A stretch of 64,000 bases of DNA from Fuerstiella marisgermanici (GTDB lineage Bacteria; Planctomycetota; Planctomycetia; Planctomycetales; Planctomycetaceae), in NCBI RefSeq assembly GCF_001983935.1, contig NZ_CP017641.1, forward strand, positions 558,001-622,000, in the 5' to 3' direction. Below, in pieces: positions 11,555 through 22,234 of this stretch. Below the pieces are notes generated by a model. It made no database searches, had not been told where the DNA came from, and saw only the letters and a list, made by a program, of their open reading frames with translations. Both the position numbers and the translations under genes were made by a program. The first letter of the stretch is position 1, and the number at the start of each line of letters is the position of its first letter.

Positions 11555-11860
11555 TTAGTAACGGCCGCCGCCGCCACCTCCGTAACCGCCGCCACCACCG
11601 CCACCGCCGCGGCGATCTTCGCGTGGGCGAGCTTCGTTGACAACAATCTGACGTCCGTCGAGGTCAGAACCGTTCAGAGCCTGAATGGCGTCATCGCCAC
11701 CAGTTTCCATTTCAACAAAGCCAAATCCCTTGGACCGACCCGTCTCACGGTCACTAATGACCTTTGCAGACGTGACTTGTCCGAACTGAGCAAATGCCTG
11801 CTCCAGTCCCTCAGACGTGGTCCCCCAAGCAAGGCTACCCACAAAAATGTTCTTACTCAT
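11555..11860 (-). CDS. RRM-domain RNA-binding protein with glycine-rich tail
   Basis: A 101-residue single RRM protein. RNP2 is IFVGSL at residues 5-10 and RNP1 is KGFGFVEM near 44-51; the aromatic residues that stack on RNA bases are present. The tail from about residue 83 is almost pure glycine with Tyr and Arg. Such small glycine-rich RRM proteins occur in cyanobacteria, planctomycetes and others and are often cold-responsive; that role is known for the family and inferred here. AAGGG lies upstream of the ATG as a Shine-Dalgarno sequence. Monocistronic, with a 320-base upstream region that could hold control elements. Confidence 0.9.
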   Translation of the reverse strand: MSKNIFVGSLAWGTTSEGLEQAFAQFGQVTSAKVISDRETGRSKGFGFVEMETGGDDAIQALNGSDLDGRQIVVNEARPREDRRGGGGGGGGYGGGGGGRY

Positions 11861-12182: not shown

Positions 12183-12470
12183 CTACCCGCGGAACATTGC
12201 GGCTCGCGATTGCTGCATTTCGTAGGTGAACTGCATGATGTCGTAGGCGTTAAGTTCGCACAGCAGACGGGTCACTTTGGCGTGAGTTTCGTCGTCGAGA
12301 GTGTCTTCGACTTCCTTCATGACGTCGGCTAGACGAGCTTCCTGATCACTGATTTCCTTGTCAGAAATCACGCCGTCCTGGAACGCTCGGACAAAGCCTT
12401 CCAGTTGTTTAGCGTAGTCGTCGATCAGGGGTTCGTTGGTGTCGGGATCAATCCAGCTTTTACGGGCCAT
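12183..12470 (-). CDS. Small conserved-looking acidic protein, unknown function
   Basis: 95 residues, beginning MARKSWIDPDTNEPLIDDYA. It is mostly predicted helix, acidic, with no membrane segment, signal peptide or metal site that I can see. Two helical stretches (about 20-55 and 58-90) look amphipathic. It lies 83 bases downstream of the AAA ATPase gene on the same strand, and the gap contains a hairpin, so it may be the last gene of that transcript and a partner or adaptor of the ATPase. I do not recognise the family. Confidence 0.6.
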   Translation of the reverse strand: MARKSWIDPDTNEPLIDDYAKQLEGFVRAFQDGVISDKEISDQEARLADVMKEVEDTLDDETHAKVTRLLCELNAYDIMQFTYEMQQSRAAMFRG

Positions 12471-12508
12471 GGTGCGACTTTCGGGTTTGGAGTTTGGAGA
12501 CTGCTGCG

Positions 12509-12554
12509 GAGTTCAAGTTTCGATTCCAATCCTGAAATTTCGAAATCTGAACTC
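12509..12554 (-). terminator. Hairpin between the AAA ATPase and the 95-residue protein gene
   Basis: GAGTTCA at 12509-12515 pairs with TGAACTC at 12548-12554, with further A/T-rich pairing inside. It begins at the stop codon of the ATPase gene. No clear T run follows on the minus strand. It could be a processing or partial termination site. Confidence 0.3.
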
Positions 12555-14326
12555 TACAACTGTTCAACAAGGTTTCTCATCGTCGTCAACTGCTGCTGCA
12601 ATTGGGCGCGGCCGCCTTCGGATTCCAGCGTATCACGCCATTCGTCGTTCAGGAAGTCGGTCTGAGTGCATTCCAGAACGGCCGCCAGTTCCTGCATGTC
12701 TTTCTCCAGGCCCTGAGCTGCAGGAATGAATTCACTGAGCGATTTTTCGATATCGTCTTTACTCACCGTCGTCCGCCCGTCCAGCAATGCCACGCGTCGA
12801 GCCGTCAGCACCACGCTTTCGATATCTGCACCACTTAGTTCCTTGTGGCGGTCGTCCAGCTTTAGCGAATCCGTTTCTATCGCGACTTTGTTCTTGCGGC
12901 CCATGACCTCGAACATGTTCAGAATTTCCTGTTCGTTGTCCGGGTAAAATAACGGGATATGCACTTCCGCTCGTCCCTGGCGTTTTAGGTCGATCGGGAG
13001 TAGATCCGGGCGGCAGGTCAAAAGCATCCACATGATGCGGCCTCGATACCGAGTGTCGCCCATTTGCTGAGCGATCATCGAAAAGACCCGGCCGCTGGTT
13101 CCCGAATCGCCACTTTGATTTCGATCGCCCAGCGCCGCATCGGCTTCGTCGATGATCACAATCACCGGGCCAAGACTTCGAAGCACGGTTAGAACTCGCT
13201 GCAGGTTGCCTTCGGATTCGCCGACGTACTTGCTGCGAAAGTTCTTCAGCTTCACGCACGGAATGCCAATTGATCCGGCGTAGCATTCCGCCAGAAATGT
13301 TTTGCCTGTCCCGACCGGACCGCAAATCAGATAACCCATCGGCGCGGCGTCGGAATGTCCGCTACTGATCAGCTTTGCATCCTGCCTTAGCCGTCGACAC
13401 GCGGCTTCGTGTCCGACCACCAGATCCAGCGTGTGCTTCGGTTCGACGAATTCCAGAAACCCGCTGCACTGGCGTTCAATGGCCGTCTTCTTGAGGTTAC
13501 GAAACTGAGTCGCGGTCGCTCCGCCGGTGCGCGCCGCCTGGGCCAACAACTGCTCAAGACTTAGCAGGCTTAGTCCGTTTGAATTGCCAATCAGTTGAGA
13601 CTTCGTCAGTTTGTCGCCGCTGCCATCTTCCGGCACCTTGTCCGCGTTGGCGTCGATGAAACGCTGGCGAGCCGAAGCATCCGGCATGGGTACTTCAATC
13701 GCGGTGATGAAGGGGCTTTGAGCCAGCCGATCATTCACCTCGGACAGGCTTTCACTGATCAGGAAAAACGCCATGTTGATTCGGCGAATGTACGGGTTGC
13801 GAGCCCAGTCTAAAAAGCGGACGACTCGCGACGCAATGGTGCCGGAAATCTGGACGGGTTCGCCCGGTGGCACAAGGTATTGACCGTAGTCGAACACGAC
13901 CGCCAATCGTTTGCGCTGCTCGGGTTTTTCTTCCAGCAGGTAACGTTCGATCATCTGATCCAGCGTGGCCAGAATGTCATCCGGCTTACGCGACCAGTTG
14001 CGGTAGTGACCGAACAGTCCGGTTAGCTCCCGCATCATTTCCTGATGGCGATCCGAATCCCTTCCCGCCAGCGCCTGCAGGCCCTTGCTGAGATTGTGCT
14101 GCAAGACAATGTCCCAGCGGCCGAACAGATATTCGCCCAAGAATTCCGTAACACTCAGGAACTGTGTTTCGCCGTTGGCTTCGCACGGCACCAGATCATG
14201 GATATTTCCGTGGAGGATGAAGAAGCACGAGTTACCGGAAAAGTAAGACTCCGCAATCTCCCGCGCCCAGGATGGGTACCAGTCGGGCAAGTCGAGATTG
14301 GCGGGTTGAGAATCAGGGTCCGGCAT
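12554..14326 (-). CDS. Classical AAA ATPase, Vps4/katanin-like catalytic domain with divergent N-terminal half
   Basis: 590 residues. The C-terminal half is a classical AAA domain: Walker A GPVGTGKT near 334, the pore-loop region SKYVGESEGNLQRVL near 365, Walker B VIIDEADAAL near 393, and the second region of homology TCRPDLLPIDLKRQGRAE carrying arginine-finger positions. It ends with a helical lid LSGADIESVVLTAR. The SKxxGESE pattern is typical of the Vps4/spastin/katanin group and of p97-type ATPases. The first half (FILHGNIHDL, VVFDYGQYLVPPGE) resembles a degenerate ATPase or substrate domain without a Walker A motif. It probably acts as a hexamer that unfolds or disassembles a protein partner. 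The gene upstream encodes PspA/IM30, whose superfamily includes ESCRT-III, the Vps4 substrate. Confidence 0.78.
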   Translation of the reverse strand: MPDPDSQPANLDLPDWYPSWAREIAESYFSGNSCFFILHGNIHDLVPCEANGETQFLSVTEFLGEYLFGRWDIVLQHNLSKGLQALAGRDSDRHQEMMRELTGLFGHYRNWSRKPDDILATLDQMIERYLLEEKPEQRKRLAVVFDYGQYLVPPGEPVQISGTIASRVVRFLDWARNPYIRRINMAFFLISESLSEVNDRLAQSPFITAIEVPMPDASARQRFIDANADKVPEDGSGDKLTKSQLIGNSNGLSLLSLEQLLAQAARTGGATATQFRNLKKTAIERQCSGFLEFVEPKHTLDLVVGHEAACRRLRQDAKLISSGHSDAAPMGYLICGPVGTGKTFLAECYAGSIGIPCVKLKNFRSKYVGESEGNLQRVLTVLRSLGPVIVIIDEADAALGDRNQSGDSGTSGRVFSMIAQQMGDTRYRGRIMWMLLTCRPDLLPIDLKRQGRAEVHIPLFYPDNEQEILNMFEVMGRKNKVAIETDSLKLDDRHKELSGADIESVVLTARRVALLDGRTTVSKDDIEKSLSEFIPAAQGLEKDMQELAAVLECTQTDFLNDEWRDTLESEGGRAQLQQQLTTMRNLVEQL

Positions 14327-14611
14327 TTTGATGATCAGATTCTGTCAAGTAAGGAGACAGGCAACTTCGGCAATCCGATTCGTTGCAAACAATTCGTGGC
14401 CCCGAATGGAACTGCAGAATTTAGCCTTGGGCGTAAGTTCACAGGAAGCGATCACCTAAGAATGTGTAACGCCCTGATTAGGCGATAGCGGATTCAAATG
14501 ATGAACTTGCTGTCGCCCGTTCAGGGCATTGATGACGTTTCGGGATAAATCCGATGACTCACGCCATCGGCTGCGCGCTGTCGCCCATCCAAGCCAACCG
14601 CGGCCCACCTA

Positions 14612-15361
14612 TCAATTCGTTTCCGTCTGCCTCTGAGCCGGACCGAGATCCTTCGCCTCTTCCGCCACATTGGCTGTGGACGGTGTGATCATGCCCATGT
14701 CCATTTCGAACTGCTTTAAGGCGTCGTTGGCCATCGCCGCTTCCATGGCTTCTTCGCGTTCAATATCGGCAATGCCTTCATCCGACAGGTCTGCCGCCAC
14801 TTTGGCTTTGGCTCGGTTCTTATCGATCTTCTCCTGCAGCACCGATTCGATCTGCCCAAGATCCGTTGTCACGTCGAAGTTGAATGTCGTCGCCAGATCG
14901 GCCAGTTCTGCTTCGGCTCGGCTGAGCTTCAGTTCTGCGTCGTACTTTGAAATCTTGTCTTTGATCTCGCCGACCTTCTTGGTGGCGTTCTTGATTTTGC
15001 GGACATTGTTGTCGTATGCCTTTTCGTGCATCTCCAACTGTTCAACGTTCTCAGCCATCTCGGCCTTGGCCTTCTGCAGCTCCAACGCAAACTTCGATGC
15101 GGTATCACGATCGCCGGATTGCAGATACGCCTTGATCTTGGCTTCCAGTTGAGCCACGTGCTTTTTGTTGCCGTCGACCTGACGAGCCACTTTTCGCACC
15201 AGCGCCTGATATTCGGCGAGGCCGTCCTTGCCGGACTTCAGCTGCTCAATAGCCTGATCGTACTCGTACTGCATTTGAGCGATCGGGTCGGCCGTCCAAA
15301 AAAAGTTGGCCAGCTTGTTCATTTGTGCTTTAAACGAACGCCAGATCTTTCCGATGATCAT
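14612..15361 (-). CDS. pspA: PspA/IM30 (Vipp1) family membrane-remodelling protein
   Basis: 249 residues, largely coiled coil. The N-terminus IIGKIWRSFKAQMNKLANFF is a likely amphipathic membrane-binding helix, followed by the usual ADPIAQMQYEYDQAIEQLK opening of PspA/IM30 and long charged helices rich in Ala, Lys and Glu to about residue 215. The tail is a short acidic and polar stretch. PspA and Vipp1 form helical or ring polymers on membranes and belong to the ESCRT-III superfamily (established). It is 285 bases upstream of the AAA ATPase gene on the same strand. No PspF-type regulator or PspB/PspC is nearby. Confidence 0.82.
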   Translation of the reverse strand: MIIGKIWRSFKAQMNKLANFFWTADPIAQMQYEYDQAIEQLKSGKDGLAEYQALVRKVARQVDGNKKHVAQLEAKIKAYLQSGDRDTASKFALELQKAKAEMAENVEQLEMHEKAYDNNVRKIKNATKKVGEIKDKISKYDAELKLSRAEAELADLATTFNFDVTTDLGQIESVLQEKIDKNRAKAKVAADLSDEGIADIEREEAMEAAMANDALKQFEMDMGMITPSTANVAEEAKDLGPAQRQTETN

Positions 15362-15454: not shown

Positions 15455-15521
15455 GTTTAACCCGTAGCCGAAGGCGCAGGCGGTGAAAGATGACGCCTGC
15501 GCCTTCGGCTACGGGTTAAAC
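15455..15521. repeat. Long palindrome, GTTTAACCCG family, copy 1
   Basis: Perfect 28-base inverted arms (15455-15482 and 15494-15521) with an 11-base loop. The arms begin and end with GTTTAACCCGTAGCCGAAGG and its complement. It lies between pspA and the DUF1080 gene. A relative with the same outer sequence is at 21934-22048, so this is a dispersed repeat. It may also terminate the DUF1080 transcript. Confidence 0.8.
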
Positions 15522-21701: not shown

Positions 21702-22234
21702 CCGCAACACCCTTCGGCAAGTGATTTTTTAATCCGCATTGAATTCACTCTAACAAGCTGCAAGGCACGGAGATCCGGACGACGCGAGTCTGTTGGTCGA
21801 CGACGCCATCAGCGCGGCACATCACGCGGGGAACGTGAATTAAATAAGTGACGGTGTCTTCCCTCACGAAAACGACCTCCGCACGATCAGATTTCCGGGG
21901 GGGCGTCATCATAAGAAAGCCGAATTGCTTCCCATCGTTTAACCCGCAGCCGGAGGCGTGGCCGGGGACGGCTGTGCCGCAGCGGAAGCTGAAGATTTAT
22001 GGACCCCGATCAGAGGACGCCTGCGCCTGCGGCTGCGGGTTAAACGATGTCTTGGACGCGCCATGCGAGATCCGTCAGTAATTTAATCGACGTCCCGAGC
22101 GTGATGGCCACGTAGCCGTCATCGCTCCGCATGACGAGCCGCGCAAGGCTTGCATTCGCCCAACAGAAGGCGCCGTCCGAACGGTTGAGCCGCGATCGAT
22201 GTTTTCCCACCACCCACAATATTGCGGCGGCGTC
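21702..22234. other. Intergenic region holding a palindromic repeat
   Basis: No convincing gene; open frames here are short and in other frames than their neighbours. The main content is the GTTTAACCCG-family element at 21934-22048. Confidence 0.4.
21934..22048. repeat. Long palindrome, GTTTAACCCG family, copy 2
   Basis: 25-base inverted arms with one mismatch (21934-21958 and 22024-22048) and a 65-base spacer that is itself GC-rich and partly self-complementary. The outer bases match the element at 15455-15521. It lies between convergent gene ends. Confidence 0.75.

Follow-up and report, generated by a model that had tools for sequence, protein, structure and literature searches.

A conserved gene trio for a divergent PspA, an AAA+ ATPase with a predicted inactive first domain and a small helical protein in Fuerstiella marisgermanici and its relatives

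Gene content of the locus

The pspA locus described here lies in a 64,000-nt stretch of the Fuerstiella marisgermanici genome (contig NZ_CP017641.1, positions 558,001 to 622,000), which was analysed as a whole and is called the window below; the genome is a single 8.92-Mb contig. Three genes follow each other on the minus strand: pspA, the gene for a 590-amino acid (aa) ATPase and a gene for a protein of 95 aa. The trio recurs in many other genomes, and we consider a functional pairing of PspA with the ATPase to be well supported by the sequence comparisons. The genes are as follows (coordinates refer to the window):

14612..15361, minus strand: pspA, 249 aa, member of a divergent PspA/IM30 clade accompanying the AAA ATPase; PF04012 match
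12554..14326, minus strand: gene for an AAA+ ATPase with two domains (P0001), 590 aa; PF00004 match, structural model and superposition on p97
12183..12470, minus strand: gene for a small helical protein, 95 aa; constant third partner, matched downstream of the ATPase gene in relatives by its profile hidden Markov model (HMM)

A preliminary description of this locus, made from the sequence alone, had proposed a bacterial ESCRT-III/Vps4-like module of three genes. The open reading frames (ORFs) were found at the coordinates that it gave, all on the minus strand, and the gap that it gave between pspA and the ATPase gene measures indeed 285 nt. Its naming of the 249-aa product as PspA also stands: residues 2-216 match PF04012 (PspA_IM30) at 39.2 bits with a cut-off of 33.9 (Pfam scan), and by this profile the protein belongs to the ESCRT-III superfamily.

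Two further PspA paralogues are encoded in the same genome (L168:3967-4686 and L169:5375-5917). Each lies, by eye, beside a sigma-factor-like gene; no AAA neighbour was seen in the fetched stretches, and the C-terminal motif discussed below is absent from both.

Domain architecture of the ATPase

The ATPase matches PF00004 (AAA) at 81.4 bits, with a cut-off of 21.2. The classical AAA domain, SKYVGESE pore-loop region and arginine-finger segment named in the preliminary description are all present. Together with Walker A (GPVGTGKT), Walker B (IIDEAD) and the KRQGR arginine region, the pore-loop region is largely invariant among 50 aligned homologues; the protein has the Walker A and B motifs and the second region of homology with arginine fingers by which classical AAA+ proteins are recognised. 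Residues G339, T340, G341, K342, D393, E394, R449, and R452 are the same in all 50, and the Walker A lysine, the Walker B acids, the pore-loop glycine and both arginines show no exception (50/50). These motifs occupy the second of two parts of the chain:

13457..14278, minus strand: N-terminal AAA-like half, about residues 17-290, defined from the model and the p97 alignment; without Walker A, with a conserved GN-x-x-DL
12737..13456, minus strand: active AAA domain, about residues 291-530; Walker A at 336-343, KYVGE pore loop, Walker B, sensor 1 and R449/R452

The structural model has a mean pLDDT (predicted local distance difference test) of 88.0 over the whole chain. In its N-terminal half strands and helices alternate in an AAA-like order. 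The P-loop pattern G-x4-GK[ST] is absent from this half in 49 of the 50 alignment rows, and the single match (L071) was taken as chance; what is conserved after the first strand is a G-N-x-x-D-L sequence. Judged from the model, the half has the look of another AAA domain that is dead; it had been missed in the preliminary description.

The whole ATPase can be superposed on both rings of p97 (5c18_B, Z 22.5, 462 residues aligned, root-mean-square deviation [rmsd] 8.5), with p97 D1 aligning to the first half from residue 17 onwards. Chains of p97, Rix7, NVL, and AFG2 align over both halves, from residues 13-18 to residues 548-578, and the two-ring matches as a group have Z scores of 20.8-22.5 over 451-475 residues (rmsd 5.8-9.7). 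The active domain taken alone superposes on yeast Vps4 (3eih, Z 22.0, 262 residues, rmsd 3.2) and reaches the same Z of 22.0 with Cdc48 (3cf0), so the fold search does not separate the two. Pfam scans of the protein gave no match to a MIT domain (E up to 1), to a DNA-binding domain or, in what was a sequence scan only, to Vps4_C.

The preliminary description had called the ATPase Vps4-type. This assignment was rejected: a MIT match is missing, the chain has two AAA-like halves and p97/Cdc48 fits its whole length. From sequence and model it appears to us to be a two-ring protein of the Cdc48 kind, laid out like Cdc48, Rix7, and NVL, in which the first ring is dead and a MIT domain is lacking.

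Distant homologues with about 26% identity (tblastn, residues 18-561) were also met in two other genomes (L049 in G061 and L050 in G007). Both have the same GN-x-x-DL N-terminal half, and neither has a match to the PspA of the window within the fetched stretch. Since they share this half without such a match, the family with a dead first half is wider than the PspA system.

Conservation of the trio across genomes

With the ATPase alignment as query, 134 relatives were found among genome contigs; the synteny counts given here refer to the best 80 named loci. These are mostly from Planctomycetota, the others being titled Acidobacteria, Myxococcales, Kofleriaceae, one Deltaproteobacteria and two “bacterium.” The closest named records are Fuerstiella metagenome-assembled genomes and uncultured Planctomycetaceae with 80-83% ATPase identity (records of the genome itself were possibly excluded).

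pspA is located at most 400 nt upstream of the ATPase gene in 64 of the 80 loci. In seven more it lies 4.3-4.9 kb upstream, with the four transporter-operon genes described below in between; these seven comprise three Acidobacteria, three Myxococcales/Kofleriaceae and one further bacterium. Three loci have pspA at a contig edge. The small gene follows the ATPase gene within 400 nt in 69 loci (edge in two, not found by the HMM in nine). In the Acidobacteria and Myxococcota records pspA, the ATPase gene and the small gene still form one run, with the transporter genes between the first two. Conservation of gene order was the check that the preliminary description had called for, and the order pspA-ATPase-small gene is kept across Planctomycetota, well outside close relatives, with the same genes present in Acidobacteria and Myxococcota. 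Such conservation is far beyond chance.

Co-occurrence was counted in 100 genomes of the same family, 13 of which have an ATPase orthologue (at least 55% identity). The PspA clade (by its clade profile), the small protein and the PBP-OmpA protein of the transporter operon are each present in 12 of these 13 and in none of the other 87 genomes; for the coiled-coil protein of the same operon the counts are 11/13 and 1/87. All misses among the ATPase-positive genomes fall in two fragmented assemblies (G016 and G098) in which the contig of the trio is cut. Five genera contain both positive and negative genomes, although for g57 the negative assembly has a completeness of only 66%. G081 has the small gene too, on a different contig. 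The one family genome with the coiled-coil protein outside the ATPase-positive group (G005:C393:3801-4655, 47% identity) has no ATPase orthologue, PspA clade, small protein or PBP-OmpA; this assembly is 86% complete.

A sample of 392 genomes of the phylum was searched at E up to 1e-20 for the wider PspA clade and up to 1e-40 for the ATPase. The former was found in 50 genomes and the latter in 65, both together in 47, PspA alone in three and the ATPase alone in 18, so the ATPase is present in 47 of the 50 genomes with the PspA clade vs. 18 of the 342 without it. The PspA clade, the small protein and the ATPase thus occur together genome by genome, sometimes on different contigs, and this co-occurrence supports a dedicated PspA/ATPase pair.

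A conserved motif in the PspA tail

The C-terminal tails of the PspA proteins are variable except for K-x-(L/I/M)-G, which is mostly followed by P. In the window it is found at:

14639..14653, minus strand: tail motif KDLGP, PspA residues 237-241; [KR]-x-[LIM]-G-P, candidate docking tag

For counting, the strict pattern was defined as [KR]x[LIM]G followed by P, H or the chain end within the last 45 residues. It was applied to a close set of PspA proteins from 71 distinct loci, to a divergent set of 19 (24-29% BLASTP identity to the PspA of the window) and to 31 control PspAs. The controls are the two paralogues of the same genome and 29 other loci that a PF04012 search of genomes of the same taxonomic family returned; some come from ATPase-positive genomes, and one (L257) is cut at a contig end.

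The strict motif occurs in 61 of the 71 close proteins, always with P, in 19 of the 19 divergent ones (14 with P) and in none of the 31 controls; shuffled tails contain it in 0.3% of cases. Eight of the ten close proteins that miss it have K-x-L-G without the proline, and two (L119 and L123) have no motif. With the loose pattern [KR]x[LIM]G the counts are 69/71, 19/19, and 8/31. The divergent tails vary in length and contain much alanine and proline, so that hardly anything except the motif is retained in them.

The phylum sample yielded 52 PspA matches, overlapping with the sets of 71 and 19; 40 have the strict motif and 52 the loose one, two of these being doubtful (L315, counted as strict for an RELG at the chain end, with KTIGK in the tail itself, and L317, with a loose match in a helix). 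The motif is also present in clade PspAs encoded on contigs other than that of the ATPase, with P in G108, G364, G172 (two proteins), G301, and G359 and as K-x-(I/L)-G without P in G117, G212, G228, G242, G256, G270, G282, and G423. To judge from these counts the K-x-(L/I/M)-G-P tail behaves as a short linear motif, and we regard it as a candidate docking tag that the ATPase might read.

The small 95-aa protein

The model of the small protein (pLDDT 91.2) has two long helices, 37-55 and 60-93, behind short ones. W6, D32, G33, E39, Q43, E55, H63, T67, and M79 are invariant in 50 members. No match that holds was obtained in Pfam, NCBIfam or PDB, and a Foldseek comparison of the model with solved structures gave none at E 0.001. 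Weak matches over the 50 members (59 families in all, among them GvpG in 14 members, best 0.0026, VPS28 in two, best 0.0067, and TerB in one, 0.0091) were taken as chance for a helical protein. It may be a detached MIT-like adaptor, an idea that was considered; Foldseek gave no match at E 0.001, and the VIA comparison covered eight chains. As the protein is so constant a companion of the ATPase, a role as adaptor or regulator of the motor seems most likely.

Transporter genes and the longer operon

The preliminary description saw a module of three genes. The trio itself is confirmed, but four genes of the same system at two other loci of the genome, and with them a link to an ABC importer, were missed. 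These genes code for a binding protein with NMT1 and OmpA domains (PBP-OmpA), an ABC permease, an ABC ATPase and a coiled-coil protein. The Pfam matches are OmpA at 45.9, NMT1 at 36.8, BPD_transp_1 at 70.4, and ABC_tran at 98.2 bits; the transporter resembles taurine, sulfonate and nitrate importers, at scores below the curated NCBIfam cut-offs. In F. marisgermanici PBP-OmpA and permease genes are located at C1:8498585-8501601, the ABC ATPase and coiled-coil genes at C1:336201-338067, both apart from the trio.

PBP-OmpA is within reach of the ATPase gene in 51 of the 80 loci and all four genes in 34; in one of these, L132, the permease ORF is misplaced. In 26 loci the genes run pspA, ATPase, PBP-OmpA, permease, ABC ATPase, coiled-coil, with the small gene, where found, behind the ATPase gene; in six loci the order is pspA, PBP-OmpA, permease, ABC ATPase, coiled-coil, ATPase. 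For 24 loci the search found no member of the four; among these are all 14 of L054-L067, which are the nearest to the window (67-83% identity) and six of which have less than 2 kb downstream. In G047 the PBP-OmpA and coiled-coil genes are 1.8 kb apart on one contig and the trio is on another, an arrangement that looks like an intermediate stage.

The coiled-coil protein has no Pfam match. It was tried as a relative of PspA and Snf7, which found no support (hhalign against PspA, probability 0.9%).

In four divergent loci (L209, L210, L211, and L214) the PspA tail ends exactly at QKTMG, with no proline. Some PspA and ATPase matches had been flagged for an internal TGA. In these four PspAs a recoded TGA was considered and rejected; the codon is an ordinary stop, and within about 70 nt of the PspA end there is, by eye, a start resembling the one of the coiled-coil protein. 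This suggests the order pspA, coiled-coil, ATPase in this lineage.

Transcription unit and surroundings

The 285-nt gap of the window exceeds the gaps of all 64 named loci with pspA close by, which range from -4 to 259 nt with a median of 81. Neither an inverted repeat nor a terminator-like site was found in this gap in the window scan. Across the window the promoter and terminator scan gave results similar to those of shuffled sequences (promoter-like sites 3 vs. a mean of 1.6, terminator-like sites 4 vs. 4.8), and no RNA family was found at the gathering threshold. One further feature lies upstream of pspA:

15455..15521, no strand: perfect inverted repeat of 28 nt with 11 nt between the arms

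The repeat may mark a boundary of the transcription unit. Because an imperfect third arm is present at 22018-22039, it may also be a repeated hairpin element of this genome. The next ORF on the same strand after the trio (11555-11860) codes, by eye, for a small RNA-recognition-motif protein with a glycine-rich tail.

Proposed mechanism and alternatives

Conservation of the genes, their phyletic co-occurrence, the domain make-up of the products, the loss of the P-loop and the tail motif with its absence from the checked controls form the observed basis for an interpretation. We lean, with modest confidence and relying on sequences and models, towards the trio being the cytoplasmic core of a PspA/AAA membrane-remodelling system in which the motor disassembles PspA via its tail. 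PspA, as a member of the ESCRT-III superfamily, would polymerise on the inner face of the inner membrane. The ATPase would assemble into a hexamer with two AAA+ rings, the first dead and the second active; this motor would recognise the K-x-(L/I/M)-G-P tail of PspA and, by threading this tail with its Y-V-G pore loop, could extract subunits from the polymer; a Vps4-like job would then be performed by a Cdc48-like machine. The small helical protein would be an obligate cofactor of this motor. As an ABC importer with an OmpA-domain binding protein is often tied to the system, remodelling probably takes place at this importer or at contacts between membrane and wall. That the two-ring motor takes a PspA coat apart is, as far as sequence comparison can tell, probable. 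The preliminary description had argued from the elaborate inner membranes of planctomycetes; that argument is weakened by the presence of the system in records titled Acidobacteria and Myxococcales.

A number of observations weigh against this interpretation. The PspA profile matched none of the solved chains at E 0.001, so the fold of PspA is taken from Pfam only. In six of the 80 loci pspA was not found by the HMM with at least 1 kb of contig upstream (L089, L094, L113, L120, L128, and L133, the last of which starts inside the long operon), and many stretches of the divergent-locus set are without any PspA found; a 148-aa PspA-like ORF 2.7 kb off in L202 has no motif and was left out of the 19. 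At the level of the phylum, where the searches scored the top three (ATPase) or six (PspA) candidates per genome, 18 of the 65 ATPase-positive genomes have no PspA clade. Most of these carry distant ATPases, but G158, G102, G185, and G202 have ATPase matches of 1.6e-121 or better. Conversely, three genomes with the PspA clade have no ATPase match, and two of them (G278 and G225) still have the tail motif. The Fisher tests of co-occurrence ignore relatedness. The eight control matches to the loose pattern lie in an apparent C-terminal helix, and since the controls represent other PspA clades, the motif could simply characterise this clade and serve some other purpose.

The ATPase might instead serve the ABC importer, assembling, gating or recycling a complex of PBP-OmpA, permease and coiled-coil protein, with PspA as a membrane scaffold of that complex and not as the substrate. 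The operon structure speaks for this, since the transporter genes share an operon with the ATPase gene in the loci counted above, and PBP-OmpA and the coiled-coil protein co-occur with the ATPase even when split off. The neighbour of the ATPase gene in the Acidobacteria and Myxococcota loci is the coiled-coil gene and not pspA, and in L209, L211, L213, and L214 pspA and the ATPase gene are separated by 692-954 nt, a space that opens with the coiled-coil-like start in L209, L211, and L214. However, the window and the 14 loci nearest to it keep the motor with pspA and have no transporter-operon gene within reach (given the short downstream sequence of six of them), pspA is located only 12-121 nt upstream in L204-L208 and L212, and the tail motif sits on PspA. 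We consider a motor dedicated to the importer rather unlikely. Less probable again is that the trio is a neighbourhood held together by shared stress-regulon control, with no direct physical link between the products: the gap in the window could accommodate separate promoters, and neither a terminator nor a convincing promoter was found there, but the genes are conserved over several phyla and occur together even where they lie on different contigs, and the tail motif, too, speaks against it.

An origin of the ATPase as a true bacterial Vps4 acquired from archaea would be in line with the superposition of its active domain on 3eih and with reported transfers of Vps4-like ATPases to bacteria, where they have other neighbours (PMC11237479). 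We regard it as very improbable: besides the missing MIT match and the fit of p97/Cdc48 to the whole chain, the NCBIfam scores, all far under their cut-offs, are 86.6 bits for PAN and 80.8 for CDC48 vs. 39.8 for CdvC, and phmmer against solved sequences gave Cdc48/p97, AFG2, NVL, and Rix7 and none named Vps4 among the 60 of 266 matches listed.

Returning to disassembly of PspA by the motor, a broader version may be put forward tentatively, as possible more than as expected: the system could be an independently evolved counterpart of ESCRT-III/Vps4 with a Cdc48-like motor whose first ring is dead, PspA disassembly guided by a tail tag, an obligate 95-aa cofactor and a peptidoglycan-anchored ABC importer. 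If true, bacteria would possess an ESCRT-III disassembly cycle for which the recognition signal is defined. A dedicated motor goes together here with a defined PspA clade, with a small protein as constant partner and with a tail motif of five residues, which can be removed.

Comparison with known systems

Like the classical Psp system (PspF-PspABC), the locus combines PspA with an AAA+ partner. There, PspF is a transcription activator of the NtrC type (PMC11237479), whereas the ATPase of the window has no DNA-binding domain match.

With Cdc48/p97, AFG2, and Rix7/NVL the ATPase shares two stacked AAA domains along the whole chain. It differs from them in a first half without Walker A, in its link to PspA and in the absence of a Cdc48-type N-domain, only about 17 residues preceding the first AAA-like half.

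The resemblance to ESCRT-III with Vps4 or CdvC consists in a polymer protein of the ESCRT-III superfamily encoded beside an AAA motor and in a short C-terminal motif on the polymer protein. The present system is bacterial, and its motor differs in having two rings, a dead first half and no MIT match; Vps4 and CdvC have a single AAA domain, while the ATPase of the window aligns with two-ring chains over both halves. The MIM1 and MIM2 forms are unlike the K-x-(LIM)-G-P tail motif.

The closest precedent in the literature covered is a bacterial PspA reported together with a two-AAA+-domain protein whose N-terminal copy is inactive, with AEY64321.1 and OGG56892.1 as named examples; ATP-dependent remodelling likened to ESCRT-III/Vps4 was proposed for this pair (Ravi et al., 2024, PMC11237479). 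The PspA of the window likewise adjoins a two-AAA protein with an N-terminal copy that looks inactive. Longer operons with an ABC ATPase, a permease and PBPB-OmpA are also described there; they correspond to those of our relatives, the window genome having these genes at two other loci. The “Snf7 homologue with a TM segment” of that paper may be the coiled-coil protein, in which we found no PspA homology. The pairing of PspA with a two-AAA protein, the transporter operon and an ESCRT-like role are therefore already published in outline. Section 18 of the paper contains neither the small third gene nor the PspA tail motif nor the split over several loci, and the strings “planctomycet,” “acidobacteri,” and “myxococc” do not occur in its main text. 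In the literature covered, preprints and supplements being outside the scope and no search having been aimed at the small gene, the small protein, the split operon and the PspA tail motif were not found; what was listed for a short linear motif in PspA was unrelated. The constant small partner, the scattered transporter genes and the conserved signal in the PspA tail are thus the new leads that this locus adds to the published system.

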